From NCBI RefSeq assembly GCF_004366735.1, contig NZ_SOQX01000007.1, positions 62,001 to 126,000 of the forward strand: a stretch of 64,000 nucleotides of DNA. The letters are read 5' to 3'. The position numbers and the translations under genes were made by a program. This DNA is from Thiohalophilus thiocyanatoxydans (lineage in GTDB: Bacteria > Pseudomonadota > Gammaproteobacteria > UBA6429 > Thiohalophilaceae). This document shows positions 32,149 through 54,831 of this stretch, piece after piece. The number at the start of each line of letters is the position of its first letter. The stretch's first letter is position 1. Below the pieces are notes generated by a model. That model saw only the letters and a list, made by a program, of their open reading frames with translations, had not been told where the DNA came from and ran no database searches.

Positions 32149-33339
32149 ATGCGCAAAAAGCTGGAATCCAAACAGATCATTATTGTGAATGCAGTCGTCG
32201 TTCTGCTGTTCATTGTCATACTGGTTACTGTCAATCTGTTTCACTTCAACCACCTCAACAGCAATCTCTCGTCGATCAACGAAATCTATAACACCAAGCT
32301 TGAGATCATCACCCGGATGTCACGTATCGTCCGGGATCGCTCCCTGACCATGTTGAATATGCACCTGTCGAACGATATCTGGCATATCGATGAGCAATAT
32401 ATGCGCTTCAACCAACTGGCACCGGAATTTATTCAGCTGCGCGAACGCCTGCGCCAGCAGCCCATGGCCCCGGATGAACAGGCCGAGCTGGATCGCTGTC
32501 TGGCCCTGATCAGGAAAACCCAGCCCCTGCAAGAGCGAATCGTGCAACGCATCTACGACGGCCGTGATGCGCAGGTTCTGGATGACATCATGTACGAGGA
32601 TATGCCGCTGGAGAGCCGGCTATGGGAAGGTTTTAACAGGCTGGATCGGATCGTACGCAACAATGCCGAACAGGCCCGCCAGGTCGCCAATGAAGAGTTT
32701 AAAAACTCGCTGTATATCATCATCAGCGTGGCGGCTGTACTGGCGTTATTGACGGTCCTGCTGATGAAGCATGCCCTGCGTCGGCTGCAGCTTATCGAAA
32801 CCCGTCTCATCGATCGCGCCGAACTGCTCAGCTGGGATGCGACTCACGATCCCCTGACCAATATATGGAACCGTCGCTTTCTGGAACACCGCGTCAATCA
32901 GTTAATCAACGGTGATTATCCGCCCGAACCCCGGCATGTACTGGTCTATATCGATCTGGATAATTTCAAACCGATCAATGATATCTACGGCCATTTTCTG
33001 GGCGACGATTTCCTGCGAGCCATCGCCCTGTGTGTCGAAGCCTGCATCCGCAAGAATGATACCCTGGCCCGTATTGGCGGCGATGAGTTCGCTATCCTGC
33101 TGGAAAACTGCACCGGCGAGAAGGCTAGTGCCATTGCCGAATGCGTCCGCTCCGCCATTAGTAACTGCACGATAACCTATGATGGCCAGCCGATTCGTAA
33201 CGGTGGCTGCAGTATCGGTATTGCTGTTTTCGACGAACATCTCGAGAATTTTCAAAATCTGCTCAAACAGGCCGACCATGCCTGTTACGACGCCAAGCGG
33301 GCCGGCGGGAATCGCATCAGCTACGCCGACCGCAACTAA
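32149..33339 (+). CDS. Membrane diguanylate cyclase
   Basis: 396 aa. TM1 (9-31) and TM2 (187-205) enclose a helical periplasmic sensor of about 155 residues with no recognised ligand site. A short helix and a GGDEF domain follow: LSWDATHDPLTNIWNRR, the active-site GGDEF at 310-314, and an I-site RKND (301-304) five residues before it, so product inhibition by c-di-GMP is expected. It makes c-di-GMP from GTP. It lies directly after the sNOR genes and before a c-di-GMP-riboswitch-controlled operon. Confidence 0.93.
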   Translation: MRKKLESKQIIIVNAVVVLLFIVILVTVNLFHFNHLNSNLSSINEIYNTKLEIITRMSRIVRDRSLTMLNMHLSNDIWHIDEQYMRFNQLAPEFIQLRERLRQQPMAPDEQAELDRCLALIRKTQPLQERIVQRIYDGRDAQVLDDIMYEDMPLESRLWEGFNRLDRIVRNNAEQARQVANEEFKNSLYIIISVAAVLALLTVLLMKHALRRLQLIETRLIDRAELLSWDATHDPLTNIWNRRFLEHRVNQLINGDYPPEPRHVLVYIDLDNFKPINDIYGHFLGDDFLRAIALCVEACIRKNDTLARIGGDEFAILLENCTGEKASAIAECVRSAISNCTITYDGQPIRNGGCSIGIAVFDEHLENFQNLLKQADHACYDAKRAGGNRISYADRN

Positions 33340-33431
33340 CCGGAAACCAAAGGCCGCCTTCCAGCACCGGGTTAAACCCCGCGCATATCCCGGTCGTCAG
33401 GGACAAACGGGCACAGCTCGTTACAAATGCG

Positions 33432-33830
33432 CTATAGTACTTTCGCTTCCTCGATCTCGCGCGCAATCTTGCGGGCTTCGTTGAAAACCATTCCCAATCT
33501 GGATGTCGGCTTGGAGACAACAGCCAGTACGGCGCGATCACCGATTTGAACAATAAGAACGCACCCGTTATCCCCTTCGATCAAAACCTGCTTGAGGTTG
33601 CCTCGCTCCAGTTCGGAGGCCGTCTTGCCTCCCAGAGAGAGCAGTGAGGCACACATCGCACCCAAACGGTCCTGATCGACATTATTACGCATCACGGAGG
33701 CAAGATTAATCCCGTCACGCGACATAACCGATGACGCTTCGATGTCCTGTGAAATATTGTTGAGCCTTTTTAAAATCGGGCGGATTTTCTGTCCCGTATC
33801 TTCCTGAACGTTCTGTTTCTGCTCTGTCAT
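33432..33830 (-). CDS. Roadblock/LC7 domain protein (last gene of riboswitch operon)
   Basis: 132 aa. The Roadblock/LC7 fold is seen in IKPILKRLNNISQDIEASSVMSRDG-like helix-strand order, GAMCASLLSLGGKTASEL and VLIEGDNGCVLIVQIGDRAVLAVV. In such modules roadblock proteins act as partners or GTPase-activating factors for MglA/CvnD-type GTPases. It ends the operon that starts at 38027. Confidence 0.85.
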   Translation of the reverse strand: MTEQKQNVQEDTGQKIRPILKRLNNISQDIEASSVMSRDGINLASVMRNNVDQDRLGAMCASLLSLGGKTASELERGNLKQVLIEGDNGCVLIVQIGDRAVLAVVSKPTSRLGMVFNEARKIAREIEEAKVL

Positions 33831-33920
33831 CATATAGCAAACTCTCCATGGTATTTAACCGCTTCCACACATTAATGATTGTTAATATTTACAACCAGAA
33901 ACATGAACAAATTAAACTAT

Positions 33921-34505
33921 TTATATTTGACAGTCTGAAGGGCGGCAGCTTACACAATACAGCTTGCCGGTACGGACATGACAGACCACCTCGGCACCGG
34001 CTTCGACTTCACCGGCACAACTGTCACATAACGTCCCAACCTCAACCTTCTCTTTAAAATATCCCACAACAGGGCGCCTGATACCGCCGTAATTCAGCTC
34101 GAATGGCTCCGACTTGACTATAGCACCCCGAAAAACCTCTTCAACGCTTCGCCAGCGCGAAACAAGATACTCCTCCAGTCCGTACTCGCGCAGACTTTCT
34201 TCCATCAGATTTTCACGATAATCAAACAACTCATCCGATATCACCATCCAGTGATGCGCGGTTTTCGGATGATCGCCAAAATAACACTTCTCACCTGTAA
34301 AAATTGATTTCAGAAACGAGAACTGCTTCTCAATTGCGCGTTCCCGTGTCACCCCCTCAAAAAAAACCGATAACTTCGGATCGGTATATACTTTAGCGTA
34401 AAAGTTGGTCAAAATTTCTCTTAAACCCGTATCCTGATTCAGCGCGTCCCACAACGCCTTATCCGGAGCCAGCACACCCTTGCGCTTGTGAAAGTTGTTA
34501 TACAT
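33921..34505 (-). CDS. Truncated globin fused to a C-terminal zinc ribbon
   Basis: 194 aa from ATG 34505. Residues about 20-125 form a truncated-hemoglobin domain (FYAKVYTDPKLSVFFEGV, FLKSIFTGEKCYFG, then HPKTAHHWMVISDELFDYREN with the likely proximal His). The last about 40 residues hold CDSCAGEV...VVCHVRTGKLYCVSC, a Cys-rich ribbon that probably binds zinc. Globin plus zinc ribbon suggests a gas or redox sensor with a protein or nucleic-acid contact. Located between two roadblock genes. Confidence 0.8.
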   Translation of the reverse strand: MYNNFHKRKGVLAPDKALWDALNQDTGLREILTNFYAKVYTDPKLSVFFEGVTRERAIEKQFSFLKSIFTGEKCYFGDHPKTAHHWMVISDELFDYRENLMEESLREYGLEEYLVSRWRSVEEVFRGAIVKSEPFELNYGGIRRPVVGYFKEKVEVGTLCDSCAGEVEAGAEVVCHVRTGKLYCVSCRPSDCQI

Positions 34506-34555
34506 CACACACCATATAATAAATATGGCCCGGCCAATAAGGCCGGGCCGAAACA

Positions 34556-34960
34556 TCACACCGCCCCGTCAAGACCGGTCATGGCCTGGCGCGACTTGGT
34601 CAAAGCCATTCCCAGGTTGACACTCTTGCGACAGACAAAAGTAACAACGTGCTCTTCATTGCTTTTCATTCGCAGAAAAATATGCACGAGGTTGTCACTC
34701 ATAATGACAATTTCCTGGAAATAATGGTGGCCGTCGTCGGCAACACCACGCGCCTTTTTAAACAGGCTCTCGATCGTCGAAACATTCGGCCCCTGAAAAA
34801 GATCAGCCGTTGCCGCCGCGAGGATGTCCATAACTTCCTGTGGGTGTGAATCAACGGTTTTGATTCCCAGCAGCATACCTGTAGTCAGGTCGACATACCC
34901 ACCGGCAAGACATTCCGGGATTTCACCAACCGATTTTGCAATTGCCTGATCTAATGACAT
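34556..34960 (-). CDS. Roadblock-like protein
   Basis: 134 aa. Divergent Roadblock/LC7 fold: MSLDQAIAKSVGEIPECLAG, the strand GYVDLTTGMLLGIKTVD, a long helix, and NLVHIFLRMKSNEEHVVTFVC. Less certain than the other two roadblock proteins of this region. 50 nt upstream of the globin gene. Confidence 0.7.
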   Translation of the reverse strand: MSLDQAIAKSVGEIPECLAGGYVDLTTGMLLGIKTVDSHPQEVMDILAAATADLFQGPNVSTIESLFKKARGVADDGHHYFQEIVIMSDNLVHIFLRMKSNEEHVVTFVCRKSVNLGMALTKSRQAMTGLDGAV

Positions 34961-34994
34961 CGTTTTCTCCTTCGCTGAATAATATTAGTGTTTG

Positions 34995-36314
34995 TTATAA
35001 CTCATTGCTGACCGTTTTTTTCATGCCATTATTGACATAGTCAGCAAAACCTTCGATAAATTTGACCTGTTCGTCCGACTGCACCCATCGGGGCTCAATT
35101 TTTCGAACAGACTCAAGTGCTTCCAGTGCAGACTTGCCTTCCATAATCAATTGCGCGGCAAGCAGGGTGCCGGTTCGACCCAGACCTGCCTTGCAGTGAT
35201 ACGCGACCGGTTTCCCTTCGGCCATTCTCTTCCTGACCTGTTGGCACATCTCATAGGCCTCTTCATATTCCGGTGCTTTCATGTCATCGATCTCCAGCCA
35301 CAGGGCGTCGATGCCATACTCTTTCAGTTTCCGTGGCTCGAATTGCTCCTCGGTCAGGGAAACAAGCACCTTGATTCCGACACGCTGCAGCGCGCGCAGA
35401 TCATGATCTTCATCCGCCACGATACCCGGCCAGGGCGTACCCGCCAGCAGTCCCTGTTTCAACCACAAAAAACCGCGCGGGCCAAATGAATCACTGACAA
35501 ATTCCCTGGCGGCTTCAGGCATCGGTGGCGGTGTCGGGATATCAGCCTCCGCATCGATTTCCTCTGGTTTGGCGTCTGGTGATGGCACCGAGCATGTGCC
35601 GTTCAGAATAAAATTACGCGTGACCTTGCTTTCGGGTTCTATAAAGAACTTTTCAGTCTCATTACACTCCTGGATCCAGCCACCGGCCAGCAAGGCGGTT
35701 TTATCGGCCAGCGCCTTTGCTTCCTGCTGGTTATGCAGCACCACCAGTAACGCACTGCTTTCTCCAAGTTTGTACAAATAGTCAAGAATTCGCTCTGCCT
35801 CGCTTGTGCTCAATTCGGCGGTTGGCTCATCCACGCAGAGCAGGCCGGGACCGGCCGCCGCCTCGCGGGCGATCGCCAGCTGCCTCTGCACGGGAATGGG
35901 TAACTGCACGACCCGCTGATCGAGACAATCGGCCAATTCATCCAGACCGGATTGTTTCAGCAGACGGATGGCGAGATCCTGTTTTTGCGCTTTTGACAGC
36001 TCATGTTTTTCAGGTAATTCGTTCAGAATATTCTCCTGCACCGTCGAGGTAATCAGGCGCATATTCTGTGACACCAGAACCGGATATTCCGCCTCGCCCA
36101 GTGGATCGCCCCGATAGGTCACCTCGCCCCAGGTGCGTAGATTGGATACCGCCTGGTTGATACCGCAGATGGTACGCAACAGGGTCGACTTGCCGGTCCC
36201 TCCCGGTCCCAGCAATGCGAAGACACCGCGTTCAGGCACAGACAAATCGACCGAACGCAGGATTACGTTGTCGCCAAAGGCAACGCCAAATTGACTCAAA
36301 TTAAGCACAGGCAT
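34995..36314 (-). CDS. ABC-type ATPase fused to a tyrosine/dual-specificity phosphatase
   Basis: 439 aa. Residues 1-225 are an ABC ATPase: Walker A GPGGTGKS at 36-43, Q83, Walker B LLCVDE ending at E163, H-loop H194. The LSGGQ signature is replaced by LPIPVQRQ (138-145). A Pro/Glu-rich linker (240-270) joins it to a phosphatase of the DSP/PTP class: general-acid Asp at 343/344, then HCKAGLGRTG with Cys374 and Arg380. No permease is encoded nearby. ATP binding may gate the phosphatase; this is inference. Confidence 0.88.
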   Translation of the reverse strand: MPVLNLSQFGVAFGDNVILRSVDLSVPERGVFALLGPGGTGKSTLLRTICGINQAVSNLRTWGEVTYRGDPLGEAEYPVLVSQNMRLITSTVQENILNELPEKHELSKAQKQDLAIRLLKQSGLDELADCLDQRVVQLPIPVQRQLAIAREAAAGPGLLCVDEPTAELSTSEAERILDYLYKLGESSALLVVLHNQQEAKALADKTALLAGGWIQECNETEKFFIEPESKVTRNFILNGTCSVPSPDAKPEEIDAEADIPTPPPMPEAAREFVSDSFGPRGFLWLKQGLLAGTPWPGIVADEDHDLRALQRVGIKVLVSLTEEQFEPRKLKEYGIDALWLEIDDMKAPEYEEAYEMCQQVRKRMAEGKPVAYHCKAGLGRTGTLLAAQLIMEGKSALEALESVRKIEPRWVQSDEQVKFIEGFADYVNNGMKKTVSNEL

Positions 36315-36345
36315 GTTCCGGTTAGTTGTACATCGTGTTTTTTAG

Positions 36346-36876
36346 CTACAGTCCCGGATCCAGGCTGTATAGCAGGGACTCGGTGAGTCGAATGACATCA
36401 TTCGACACCCGGGGATCCACCTCCATGACGGGAGCGGTAATCTGTCTTCCTGACAGGACAGCGTGATAATCATCGATCGAAGGTCCCTCACCGGTTTCCA
36501 TCCGGGTCACCCCCAGCGCGATACCGGAAGCATCGATATGTCCGGAAAATGCATCCAGATACTTCTCCAGCGTCTGTAACGGATCTGGTTCGAGATTATT
36601 CATCAGGATAATCAATCCGATCGCGCCATCGGAGAGAATTTCCCACATAAAATCAAAACGCTCCTGACCCGGGGTACCGTACAGATGAATTCTTTCGCCG
36701 TCCTCGAGCTTGATCAGGCCGTAGTCCATGGCCACGGTCGTATTGTCCTTCATCTTGCTGACATCATCCGTTGCAGACTCTTCGGTCTGAAACGGCTCAA
36801 TATCACTGATCGAGGTGATGGCCGTTGTCTTCCCCGCACCCACCGGGCCGGTAAAAAGAATTTTATAGGTACTCAT
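36346..36876 (-). CDS. Conservon-type small GTPase (CvnD/MglA-like)
   Basis: 176 aa. P-loop GPVGAGKT at 10-17, switch I TTVAMDYG at 46-53, switch II GTPGQERF at 67-74, FMWE after it. The guanine-specificity motif is not a normal NKxD; TRME lies at 124-127. The PGQ form without the usual Asp is typical of the CvnD family. Such GTPases work with roadblock proteins in cell polarity or signalling. Its start overlaps the previous gene by 4 nt. Confidence 0.88.
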   Translation of the reverse strand: MSTYKILFTGPVGAGKTTAITSISDIEPFQTEESATDDVSKMKDNTTVAMDYGLIKLEDGERIHLYGTPGQERFDFMWEILSDGAIGLIILMNNLEPDPLQTLEKYLDAFSGHIDASGIALGVTRMETGEGPSIDDYHAVLSGRQITAPVMEVDPRVSNDVIRLTESLLYSLDPGL

Positions 36877-38027
36877 GCCACCTCACTGTCCATGTTTCTC
36901 AGGCGACTCAGTAGCGACCCGAACAGTCCCCGTTTCTCATTTTTCGGTACCTCTACAGGCTCCACGACCGCATCGGCCTCCCGTCTGGCCCGATCGGCCA
37001 GACCAGCGGCATGGGCCGCGGTAAAGATAGAAAACACCTCCTGCAAAGGCAGTTCCAGCTTTTCGCTCATTTCATACAGGCTGCAGGGATTCCTGGCCCA
37101 GTAAGCGATGATTTTGAGTCCGTCATCGGTCAATTTGATACGGGTGATATTCGGCCAGCGGCGTAAATACTGTCTGTCCGCCGTCGAAATGTCGTACGGT
37201 ATGCGCCCCTTGCAGGTCAACAAACCCAGATCCCACATAAACGTTTCAACCGACATGCTGCGGGTCTGTCCCGAGATGGAAGCGGCAACGCTGTCCACCC
37301 CGGCCCTGTCCAGGTAGGTAACTTCCACGGAGGAGGACAATCTGTCATCCAGCGGCGCGATGGCCATGCTGCGGATTTGATTGTCTGACAGGTTGGTCAA
37401 CACCTCGCCTTTTGCAGGCTGAATCAGAATCGATTTATGACCCCAGCATTTAATCAGCGCGCTCTCATGTCCCTGCTTTGAGGTGTCGAGTGCCTCAATG
37501 GCACGGCCGAGCAGGAACCGATCCAGATCAAAGCACATCTCATCGGTTTTTCTGATCATCTCCCGTTGCCGGTTGAACGTCGATTTGTCCTGCTCAATTT
37601 TGGTATTCAGTTTTGACGCGACTTTTTTGGTTTCAATTTTGGTTTCAATGGCTTCCATCGCCTTTTTCACCCTGTCTTCCGATATCCCGGCACTTGCCGG
37701 AACATCAAGCTCGACATCGGGCAACTCTTTTCGGATCGAATCAATCAACTCATCAGTATTTATCGGCATTTTCATACTCCTTATCGCCCAGCCATCGGCT
37801 TCGGTATTACAAAAACCGATAGCGGGAATGGACTGATTGTCTTTCACGATATCTCTGTATTTTTCTGCCATGTTCTCCGCTTCCAGGTTCAGCAAGAAGA
37901 GCTGGGCATCCGTTACTGAATCAAGCAGACGAATGTTGCGTACCTTCGGGCTTATCGCCTGACTCAGTCGTTCAATCGACCGCTTGTCAAAGCCGAACGC
38001 TGAAATTGTGATGTTGTTTTGCGGCAT
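36873..38027 (-). CDS. 384-aa receiver-like protein, first gene of riboswitch operon
   Basis: No assigned family. Residues 1-105 look like a degenerate response-regulator receiver fold (ITISAFGFDKRSIERLSQAI, then IPAIGFCN). A charged helical linker (about 110-165) precedes a central domain, and the part 260-345 resembles a winged helix (ITRIKLTDDGLKIIAYWARN, LYEMSEKLELPLQEVFSIFT). Ribosome site AGGA five nt before ATG. It is the first gene after the c-di-GMP riboswitch and is coupled to the GTPase gene. Confidence 0.75.
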   Translation of the reverse strand: MPQNNITISAFGFDKRSIERLSQAISPKVRNIRLLDSVTDAQLFLLNLEAENMAEKYRDIVKDNQSIPAIGFCNTEADGWAIRSMKMPINTDELIDSIRKELPDVELDVPASAGISEDRVKKAMEAIETKIETKKVASKLNTKIEQDKSTFNRQREMIRKTDEMCFDLDRFLLGRAIEALDTSKQGHESALIKCWGHKSILIQPAKGEVLTNLSDNQIRSMAIAPLDDRLSSSVEVTYLDRAGVDSVAASISGQTRSMSVETFMWDLGLLTCKGRIPYDISTADRQYLRRWPNITRIKLTDDGLKIIAYWARNPCSLYEMSEKLELPLQEVFSIFTAAHAAGLADRARREADAVVEPVEVPKNEKRGLFGSLLSRLRNMDSEVA

Positions 38028-38251
38028 AGTCCTGCTTCAGGGTTTACCAGGGCACCGCCCCGATTTTCAGATTCGTCGCTTCGTCCATGCCATCCTTACA
38101 ATGGCTTTCCACGAGCAACAGATGAATGTCGCCGCTGTTATCCCCGCAGGGGCTGTCAGCCAGAGCGACACAGGTCGTACTCGTGTGTAGTGTTGTGACT
38201 CGGGAATCGGTCTGCCGGGAAGCGCACGCTGGAAAACACGCGGAAGTGTTC

Positions 38252-38335
38252 CTGTGGCAACCCAGCCGTCCTAGAGCACGCTCCGTAGACCTGTAGTTTT
38301 GAGCCCCCGACTTTCACCGGGTTTTCCCTTGTCAC
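38252..38335 (-). ncRNA. Cyclic-di-GMP-I (GEMM-I) riboswitch
   Basis: Read on the minus strand, the aptamer has AGGGAAAACC, a GAAA tetraloop, GGGCTCAAAAC, GGTCTA and GGACGGCTGGGTTGCC. Aligned to the Vc2 aptamer from memory, the ligand-binding bases G20, A47 and C92 and the tertiary pair C44-G83 are kept. The pair C22-G45 is changed to A-U on both sides, so it is compensatory. G20 points to c-di-GMP rather than cGAMP. A hairpin (arms AACAC and GTGTT) follows, then about 200 nt to the start codon at 38027. Confidence 0.85.
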
Positions 38336-38342
38336 ATTCTTG

Positions 38343-38372
38343 ATTACATTCTCGAATTGAGAACCTTACCAA
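38343..38372 (-). promoter_or_regulatory. Predicted sigma70 promoter of the riboswitch operon
   Basis: Minus strand: -35 TTGGTA (38367-38372), 18-nt spacer, -10 TGTAAT (38343-38348). The expected start at about 38335 coincides with the first base of the aptamer. The spacer carries the palindrome TTCTC-AATTC-GAGAA (38349-38363), a possible operator. Confidence 0.6.
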
Positions 38373-38408
38373 TCATGTCAGTTAAGAACCTTAACAACCT
38401 TGTCAGTT
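38359..38408. repeat. Two tandem 25-nt direct repeats upstream of the riboswitch
   Basis: Units 38359-38383 and 38384-38408 agree at 21 of 25 positions; both contain GAACCTTA and TGTCAGTT. They reach into the -35 and so could bind a transcription factor as a helically phased pair. The rest of 38409-38567 is AT-rich and holds no gene. Confidence 0.75.
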
Positions 38409-38567
38409 ATATATCTATAGTTTATAGCGCTACAGAAAACAAGGTTAAAAGAATTATTTTTTATGCTAGTTTTAACTCTCTGACAAATGAGGATTTTTAT
38501 TACACGCAACAAAAGGATGGTTTATAAGAGTTTCTGATGGTTTATTCAAAAATGGGAAAAAGGCGTT

Positions 38568-38927
38568 TTAAAGGAGTCTGGCGAGCCGGTTGACCGCTTT
38601 CCAGGTCACCAGCTGCAGCATCCCCGAATTCACATCGGGGGTCGACATACAGGCCAGAATGGCCTTGTCGAAAACCGGCAGAATAGTGACACAACCCGAG
38701 CTGGAGCGAATAAACATCTCCTCGACCTGGCCGTACTGCAGCTCATCGATAATCTTGCCGCACACCAGCTGCAGCTCGATATACAGCGCCGCCACCCTGT
38801 CCGCATCCTGAACATTGCCTTCATGCGCGATCACCAGACCGTCCGGTGAGACGACAATCGACAGCAGAATACTCGGATTCGCCGAGTTCAACTCCTGCAG
38901 GACGGATTCAAGATCGGAGACTGGCAA
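38568..38927 (-). CDS. Roadblock/LC7 domain protein, upstream of the operon
   Basis: 119 aa. MPVSDLESVLQELNSANPSI, VVSPDGLVIAHEGNVQDADR and GQVEEMFIRSSSGCVTILPV are typical roadblock strands and helices. It has its own leader, and the riboswitch and promoter of the next operon lie between its stop and that operon. Probably a third partner of the GTPase. Confidence 0.87.
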   Translation of the reverse strand: MPVSDLESVLQELNSANPSILLSIVVSPDGLVIAHEGNVQDADRVAALYIELQLVCGKIIDELQYGQVEEMFIRSSSGCVTILPVFDKAILACMSTPDVNSGMLQLVTWKAVNRLARLL

Positions 38928-39110
38928 AACGATTCCTTAAATTTAACTGCTGCCGACAGGATGCAAACAGGGATTGATTGTTAACTATTATTATCATCAA
39001 ACTCGCGAAGACAACAAGCATGCCACTACATATGTTACCAAATTTTGAAGTTTTTGTTATACGCGTCACGCATCCCGCCCGTGTCATGGGGCAACACATA
39101 CCAATAAGGT

Positions 39111-39608
39111 TCAGCCACGACGGTTGTTGAACATCTCATCGGTATCGTGACCGACCGTTTCCCGTGCGACTCGCTGACGCTTGTAGCCGGTGGTAGTGCG
39201 GATTCGTGTCCACATGGTCCAGATGTAGAGCACGATCGCGATCAGCTGCAGCAGACCGCCACACAACACGACCCAGCTCAGCAGGGTCATGTCATTGGTG
39301 CTGCGCACCAGTTCCCCGGCGAAGCGCAACAGGGTACCGCTTAACAACAGCCAGTAGACCCGTCTGATCGCGGTTTCCCGGTAACGGGGATCATCGCGGG
39401 AAGGTTTGGGAAATAGCCACAGGGCCACGCCGAGGATCATAAACATCACAAAACCGACGAACATGATATGGGTGTGGGCCGAGATCAGATAGGGATGCGG
39501 CCATTCGCCGTACAACTCGCGGCGCAGCAGCATCCAGCCCCCGAGCAGCAGACCGAGGATCAAAAACACAAATGCGGTCTTGATAAATCGTCGGGGCAGT
39601 TCGGTCAT
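39111..39608 (-). CDS. Four-helix membrane protein similar to a heme-copper/NorB fragment
   Basis: 165 aa, TM helices at about 9-27, 42-66, 82-100 and 108-132. The segment HPYLISAHTHIMFVGFVMFM with three His recalls helix II of NorB/heme-copper subunit I, where a His binds low-spin heme, but most of a real subunit I is missing. Small proteins of this type are often found near NO-related genes. It could bind heme; this is inferred from the His pattern. Confidence 0.6.
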   Translation of the reverse strand: MTELPRRFIKTAFVFLILGLLLGGWMLLRRELYGEWPHPYLISAHTHIMFVGFVMFMILGVALWLFPKPSRDDPRYRETAIRRVYWLLLSGTLLRFAGELVRSTNDMTLLSWVVLCGGLLQLIAIVLYIWTMWTRIRTTTGYKRQRVARETVGHDTDEMFNNRRG

Positions 39609-54554: not shown

Positions 54555-54831
54555 TTAAAACCGTTGATACTTCACTCTTTCGTTAAACAGGCATTTTTAC
54601 CGCAAAAATCGGGCTTCTAAGCCTCTATAAAGGCGATAAAACTGCATAATTTATTGCCAAATCATAAACTTGCATTGGTCCGACCCCGTTATTTTTGAAC
54701 GCAGCAGCACCGGGCGGTTTGAAGCCGGCCCCTGCAGGCAGACTCCGGGAGGCCATACTCCCATCTTCAGTACAGTTCCACAGGTTTTAATCTGTGTTCG
54801 TGGCACACAGTGTTCTGACCCCTTGATCACT

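Follow-up and report, generated by a model that had tools for sequence, protein, structure and literature searches.

The window, as we call the whole stretch of 64,000 nucleotides that was analysed, carries the following features at the locus (window positions and strand are given for each):
32149-33339, plus strand: diguanylate cyclase (GGDEF), convergent with the operon (Pfam GGDEF, 1.4e-44; 81% identical to its orthologue in the congener G001)
33328-39160, no strand: lower-GC segment of 5.8 kb that contains the entire system and is missing from the corresponding site in G001
33432-33833, minus strand: gene 6, roadblock/LC7 protein, MglB-like (Pfam Robl_LC7, 2.3e-15)
33921-34559, minus strand: gene 5, bacterial globin with C-terminal CxxC motifs (Pfam Bac_globin)
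34556-34960, minus strand: gene 4, small conserved protein of 134 aa next to gene 3 (57-73% identity across loci)
34995-36314, minus strand: gene 3, ABC ATPase fused to a dual-specificity phosphatase, 439 aa (Pfam ABC_tran and DSPc/PTP)
36346-36876, minus strand: gene 2, MglA-like small GTPase, 176 aa (Pfam ATP_bind_1 over the cut-off, Roc/Ras below the cut-off)
36873-38027, minus strand: gene 1, 384 aa, N-terminal receiver-like domain and conserved C-terminal domain to which no function is assigned (AlphaFold model, fold match, homologue alignment)
38028-38252, minus strand: leader of 225 nt after the aptamer, the presumed expression platform, with no intrinsic terminator found
38253-38337, minus strand: c-di-GMP-I (GEMM-I) aptamer (RF01051 match, own model, family covariation)
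38343-38372, minus strand: possible promoter TTGGTA-18-TGTAAT, found by eye and below the criteria of the consensus scan
38568-38927, minus strand: second roadblock/LC7 protein, upstream of the riboswitch (Pfam Robl_LC7)

Neither gene 1 nor gene 4 gave a Pfam match. The AlphaFold model of the gene 1 product (pLDDT 73) has a helical C-terminal region, and in a fold search limited to the N-terminal part, residues 2-106 matched receiver domains (Z 12.9, 2.3 Å over 102 residues). The homologue alignment places an asparagine at the phosphoacceptor position after strand 3 in the window protein, while the aspartate is kept in relatives. The globin of the operon is a stand-alone protein with CxxC motifs in the window (33921-34559) and is fused to a ferredoxin-reductase-like protein in G020 (L045:3470-5071), a genome from another genus. 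A homologue of the second roadblock protein is found at the end of the operon in some relatives. An earlier note on this DNA had described a GTPase/roadblock operon downstream of a riboswitch, which is borne out by the Pfam matches to GTPase and Robl_LC7 families.

The same note had claimed a class I c-di-GMP riboswitch on the minus strand at 38252-38335 and had named a covariance-model search with RF01051 as the check. When the whole window was scanned with all Rfam models, two matches exceeded their thresholds and RF01051 was the best, at 38337-38253 on the minus strand (67.9 bits, E 3.8e-11, model positions 1-87 of 87). The score is well above the gathering cut-off of 35 bits, and the claimed coordinates are correct to within 2 nt. 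A further Rfam match, group-II-D1D4-2 at 54644-54762 on the minus strand (50.1 bits, cut-off 36), marks a group II intron fragment or element. No non-standard pairs are marked in the RF01051 alignment of the aptamer, our own model R1 scores it at 78 bits, and RF01051 finds no other copy in the 2.9 Mb genome. Among 23 aligned aptamers from the same bacterial family, covariation over the structure is strong, with double changes at 13 pairs and none of 500 shuffles reaching as high a value.

The aptamer lies in the 5' leader on the same strand as gene 1, 225 nt before it. Counting along the sequence and the Rfam alignment places the contact nucleotides G20, A47 and C92 at 38327, 38300 and 38257, and the inter-helix pair C44-G83 at 38303 and 38266; all carry the expected letters, as had been claimed, and the GAAA tetraloop is present in P2. 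Roles of G20, A47 and C92 in ligand contact were taken from PMC4744006, and those of aptamer positions also from PMC3764141. At 38327, the position where an A would mark a cGAMP (GEMM-Ib) aptamer, the window has G. The specificity change in cGAMP-sensing GEMM-Ib riboswitches is from G20 to A, so that the ligand, by homology, would be c-di-GMP rather than cGAMP.

One core pair departs from the consensus. Positions 22 and 45 (38325/38302) are A and U instead of C and G, so that the A-U swap reported earlier is present with pairing kept. In the family alignment, this pair is C-G in 22 of the 23 aptamers and A-U in the window only. The tetraloop receptor is also slightly altered (CUACG/UAGGA for CUAAG/UAUGA). 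The A22-U45 pair raises the question of a variant GEMM-I aptamer that would bind another ligand, such as cGAMP, or c-di-GMP with altered affinity. According to PMC3764141, C22 and G45 both show high conservation, and A49 docks onto the pair through an A-minor-like contact that helps the ligand to stack; this, like the singular position of the window among the 23 aptamers, speaks for such a variant. However, G20, A47 and C92 are all kept, the pair lies outside the direct ligand contacts, and the aptamers on the four other orthologous operons (see below) have the usual C22-G45. Furthermore, A-U is a clean compensatory double change, indicating a paired departure rather than decay. We therefore regard a variant ligand or affinity as unlikely and retain the reading as a c-di-GMP aptamer.

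The riboswitch and the operon appear to form one unit. In the congener G001, the flanking GGDEF gene (81% identical) and a COX1-like gene (79%) stand side by side. In the window, the flanks can be aligned up to 33327 and from 39161 onwards, and the corresponding points in G001 are separated by 26 bp. The segment between them has a G + C content of about 50%, compared to about 62% in most of the flanks. Repeats were sought at the segment ends and none was convincing. Based on the absence from G001 and the lower G + C content, joint acquisition of riboswitch and operon is most likely, the alternative being a deletion in G001.

To find orthologous operons, about 85,000 species genomes were scanned with the ABC-phosphatase protein (alignment of gene 3), which yielded about 50 operon loci. 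A sequence scan of genome contigs with gene 1 alone found no relatives. The model built from the 23 family aptamers was searched over 786 kb of operon loci and gave seven matches, six of which stand immediately before gene 1 and represent five different operons. Besides the window, these operons belong to G020 (also sampled as L074; Rfam RF01051 score 66.6 bits), L094 (75.6 bits) and L106 (74.8 bits), both Nitrosomonadales, and the gammaproteobacterium L087 (60.0 bits). The four other RNA-bearing genomes thus comprise two Nitrosomonadales and two gammaproteobacteria. In them the aptamer precedes gene 1 by 84-164 nt, compared to 225 nt in the window. G020 has two aptamers, one of which directly precedes the orthologous operon, and there the operon occupies a different chromosomal site, next to glmU-glmS. 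By our estimate, chance alone would account for about 0.003 (<0.01) such placements over about 50 operons, against five seen; the estimate is based on 47 GEMM-I matches in 40 genomes, or about 1.2 aptamers per 3 Mb genome. The context had been called unusual for this riboswitch class, a remark that can be extended, since the same placement recurs in five genomes.

The RNA is absent from most orthologous operons, including those of the same-family genomes G059 and G060 and those of G235, G348 and G398. In a tree of the ABC-phosphatase protein the RNA-bearing operons occupy separate places, with four label changes, three of them forced by well-supported branches. As no single clade unites these operons, three to four gains or losses of the RNA are the minimum required, a pattern that fits either repeated gain or old presence with many losses. 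On balance we favour, with some reserve, that c-di-GMP riboswitches were recruited repeatedly and independently to this one kind of MglA-type operon; in beta- and gammaproteobacteria, this GTPase module would then be a direct output of c-di-GMP signalling that has so far gone unrecognised.

The riboswitch was said in the earlier note to begin exactly at the +1 given by a predicted promoter. With TTGGTA (38372-38367) and TGTAAT (38348-38343), separated by 18 nt, +1 would indeed fall at about 38336, close to where the aptamer begins. However, position 2 of the -10 element TGTAAT is not the expected A, and the consensus promoter scan lists none there; in this region the scan finds promoters no more often than in shuffles. 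The promoter is thus plausible, but unproven.

A search of the 225-nt leader for an intrinsic terminator found none. Forcing the aptamer to form costs 13.9 kcal/mol in the window leader, a cost not above that obtained when the downstream sequence is shuffled (0.30). An anti-aptamer helix was not in excess over shuffles in the leaders of the window, L074 and L087; an excess was observed only in those of L094 (0/60) and L106 (0.05), and therefore no shared platform is claimed. Leaders differ between the species. Start-codon accessibility differs little (0.48 against 0.56); once the aptamer is formed, the start region opens slightly in the leaders of the window, L074 and L087 and hardly changes in those of L094 and L106. 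The folding z-score of the whole leader (-1.37) was uninformative. As an intrinsic terminator was not found, we infer control at the translation start or by Rho-dependent termination. Its direction likewise has to be deduced, given that the window leader shows neither a terminator nor anti-aptamer pairing above chance; our guess, with a slight lean, is that c-di-GMP turns the operon on.

Taken together, the locus very probably holds a functional GEMM-I riboswitch (c-di-GMP class I), placed in the 5' leader of a small-GTPase operon of the MglA type. This reading of the sequence builds on the observed aptamer with its intact contacts, on its position immediately before gene 1 and on the recurrence of this arrangement in four other genomes. 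Rising cellular c-di-GMP would lock the P1/P2/P3 fold of the aptamer; the 225-nt leader would then fold differently, and this would change the expression of genes 1 to 3 (receiver-like protein, GTPase and ABC-phosphatase fusion) and of the accessory globin and roadblock genes. The reading is weakened by the many orthologous operons that lack the RNA, the missing recognisable expression platform and the departure in the tetraloop receptor. The lack of a platform would also suit a decaying relic, i.e. an aptamer that came with the acquired cassette and has since lost control of it, as would the two unusual positions, the long leader and the location on a transferred segment. Such a relic is nevertheless very unlikely, given the high score, the fully standard pairing and the compensation of the single core change, which is not expected from drift. 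A chance match to RF01051 is refuted by the E-value of 3.8e-11, the single match in the genome and the repeated placement before the same gene, and its probability is negligible.

For a functional switch, a c-di-GMP pool is likely to be available, since the window genome contains 47 GGDEF and 20 EAL matches. With 47 GGDEF matches, the nearness of a GGDEF gene to the operon means little; the neighbouring diguanylate cyclase was considered as a part of the system and rejected, as it belongs to the flank common to G001, outside the inserted segment. GEMM-I RNAs occur in 29 of 40 genomes of the window's bacterial family (47 matches), and several of them precede a protein family without evident link to GTPases. 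In L016, L017, L018, L024, L025, L036, L037 and L044, the aptamers precede one conserved family of about 480-500 aa (start near 'KVVSL...YFDSMRIVRLKR'), which is apparently a main c-di-GMP riboswitch target in the window's family. Small, apparently secreted proteins of about 180 aa ('LNGRSFHL...NLTYIPP') are a second recurrent target (L019, L027, L031, L032 and L033), and one aptamer (L030:1501-1588, minus strand) stands before two consecutive single-domain receiver (CheY-like) proteins. A weak second GEMM-I-like match in L094 (12438-12537, plus strand; 35.1 bits with our own model, unreported by Rfam at E 0.01) precedes by about 200 nt a large GGDEF protein that runs on into an EAL-like region; the GTPase operon lies a few kb upstream.

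Riboswitch targets reveal what a second messenger controls. To our knowledge, no input is known for MglA-type GTPase operons other than those of Myxococcus and the actinobacterial conservons. The same c-di-GMP sensor on orthologous operons of distantly related genomes would provide a testable input for such a module and would tie it to the decision between motile and sessile life. The riboswitch class is known; judged from the genomes, its target operon recurs across beta- and gammaproteobacteria and is apparently unreported. Titles and abstracts of the literature searched report no c-di-GMP riboswitch linked with roadblock/GTPase proteins or MglA, and a search for literature on operons combining roadblock, globin, phosphatase and ABC proteins found none.

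Compared to the c-di-GMP-I type aptamers Vc2 and Vc1 of Vibrio cholerae (GEMM-I, RF01051), the window aptamer shares the full-length match, the three-helix layout, the GAAA tetraloop, G20/A47/C92 and C44-G83. It differs in A22-U45, the variant tetraloop receptor and the apparently unreported small GTPase/roadblock target operon. With the cGAMP-sensing GEMM-Ib of Geobacter it has the fold and the Rfam family in common, but keeps G20. For 'Group 3 MglA', the neighbourhood text of Wuichet and Sogaard-Andersen (2014, PMC4316618) describes a receiver-like partner protein, MglA and one or two MglB. The window likewise encodes a partner with a receiver-like N-terminus (Z 12.9), an MglA homologue and MglB/roadblock proteins (GTPase and Robl_LC7 Pfam matches), a likeness at the level of gene neighbourhood. 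The partner protein of Group 3 systems also carries a winged-helix region at its C-terminus; the model of the gene 1 product is helical in that part. The window adds the ABC-phosphatase fusion, the 134-aa protein, the globin and the c-di-GMP riboswitch, none of which is named in that neighbourhood text. The Group 1 Rup GTPase systems, as presented there (PMC4316618), also tie a small-GTPase module to c-di-GMP signalling; their link is an adjacent GGDEF/EAL protein, whereas in the window it would be an RNA sensor in the operon leader.
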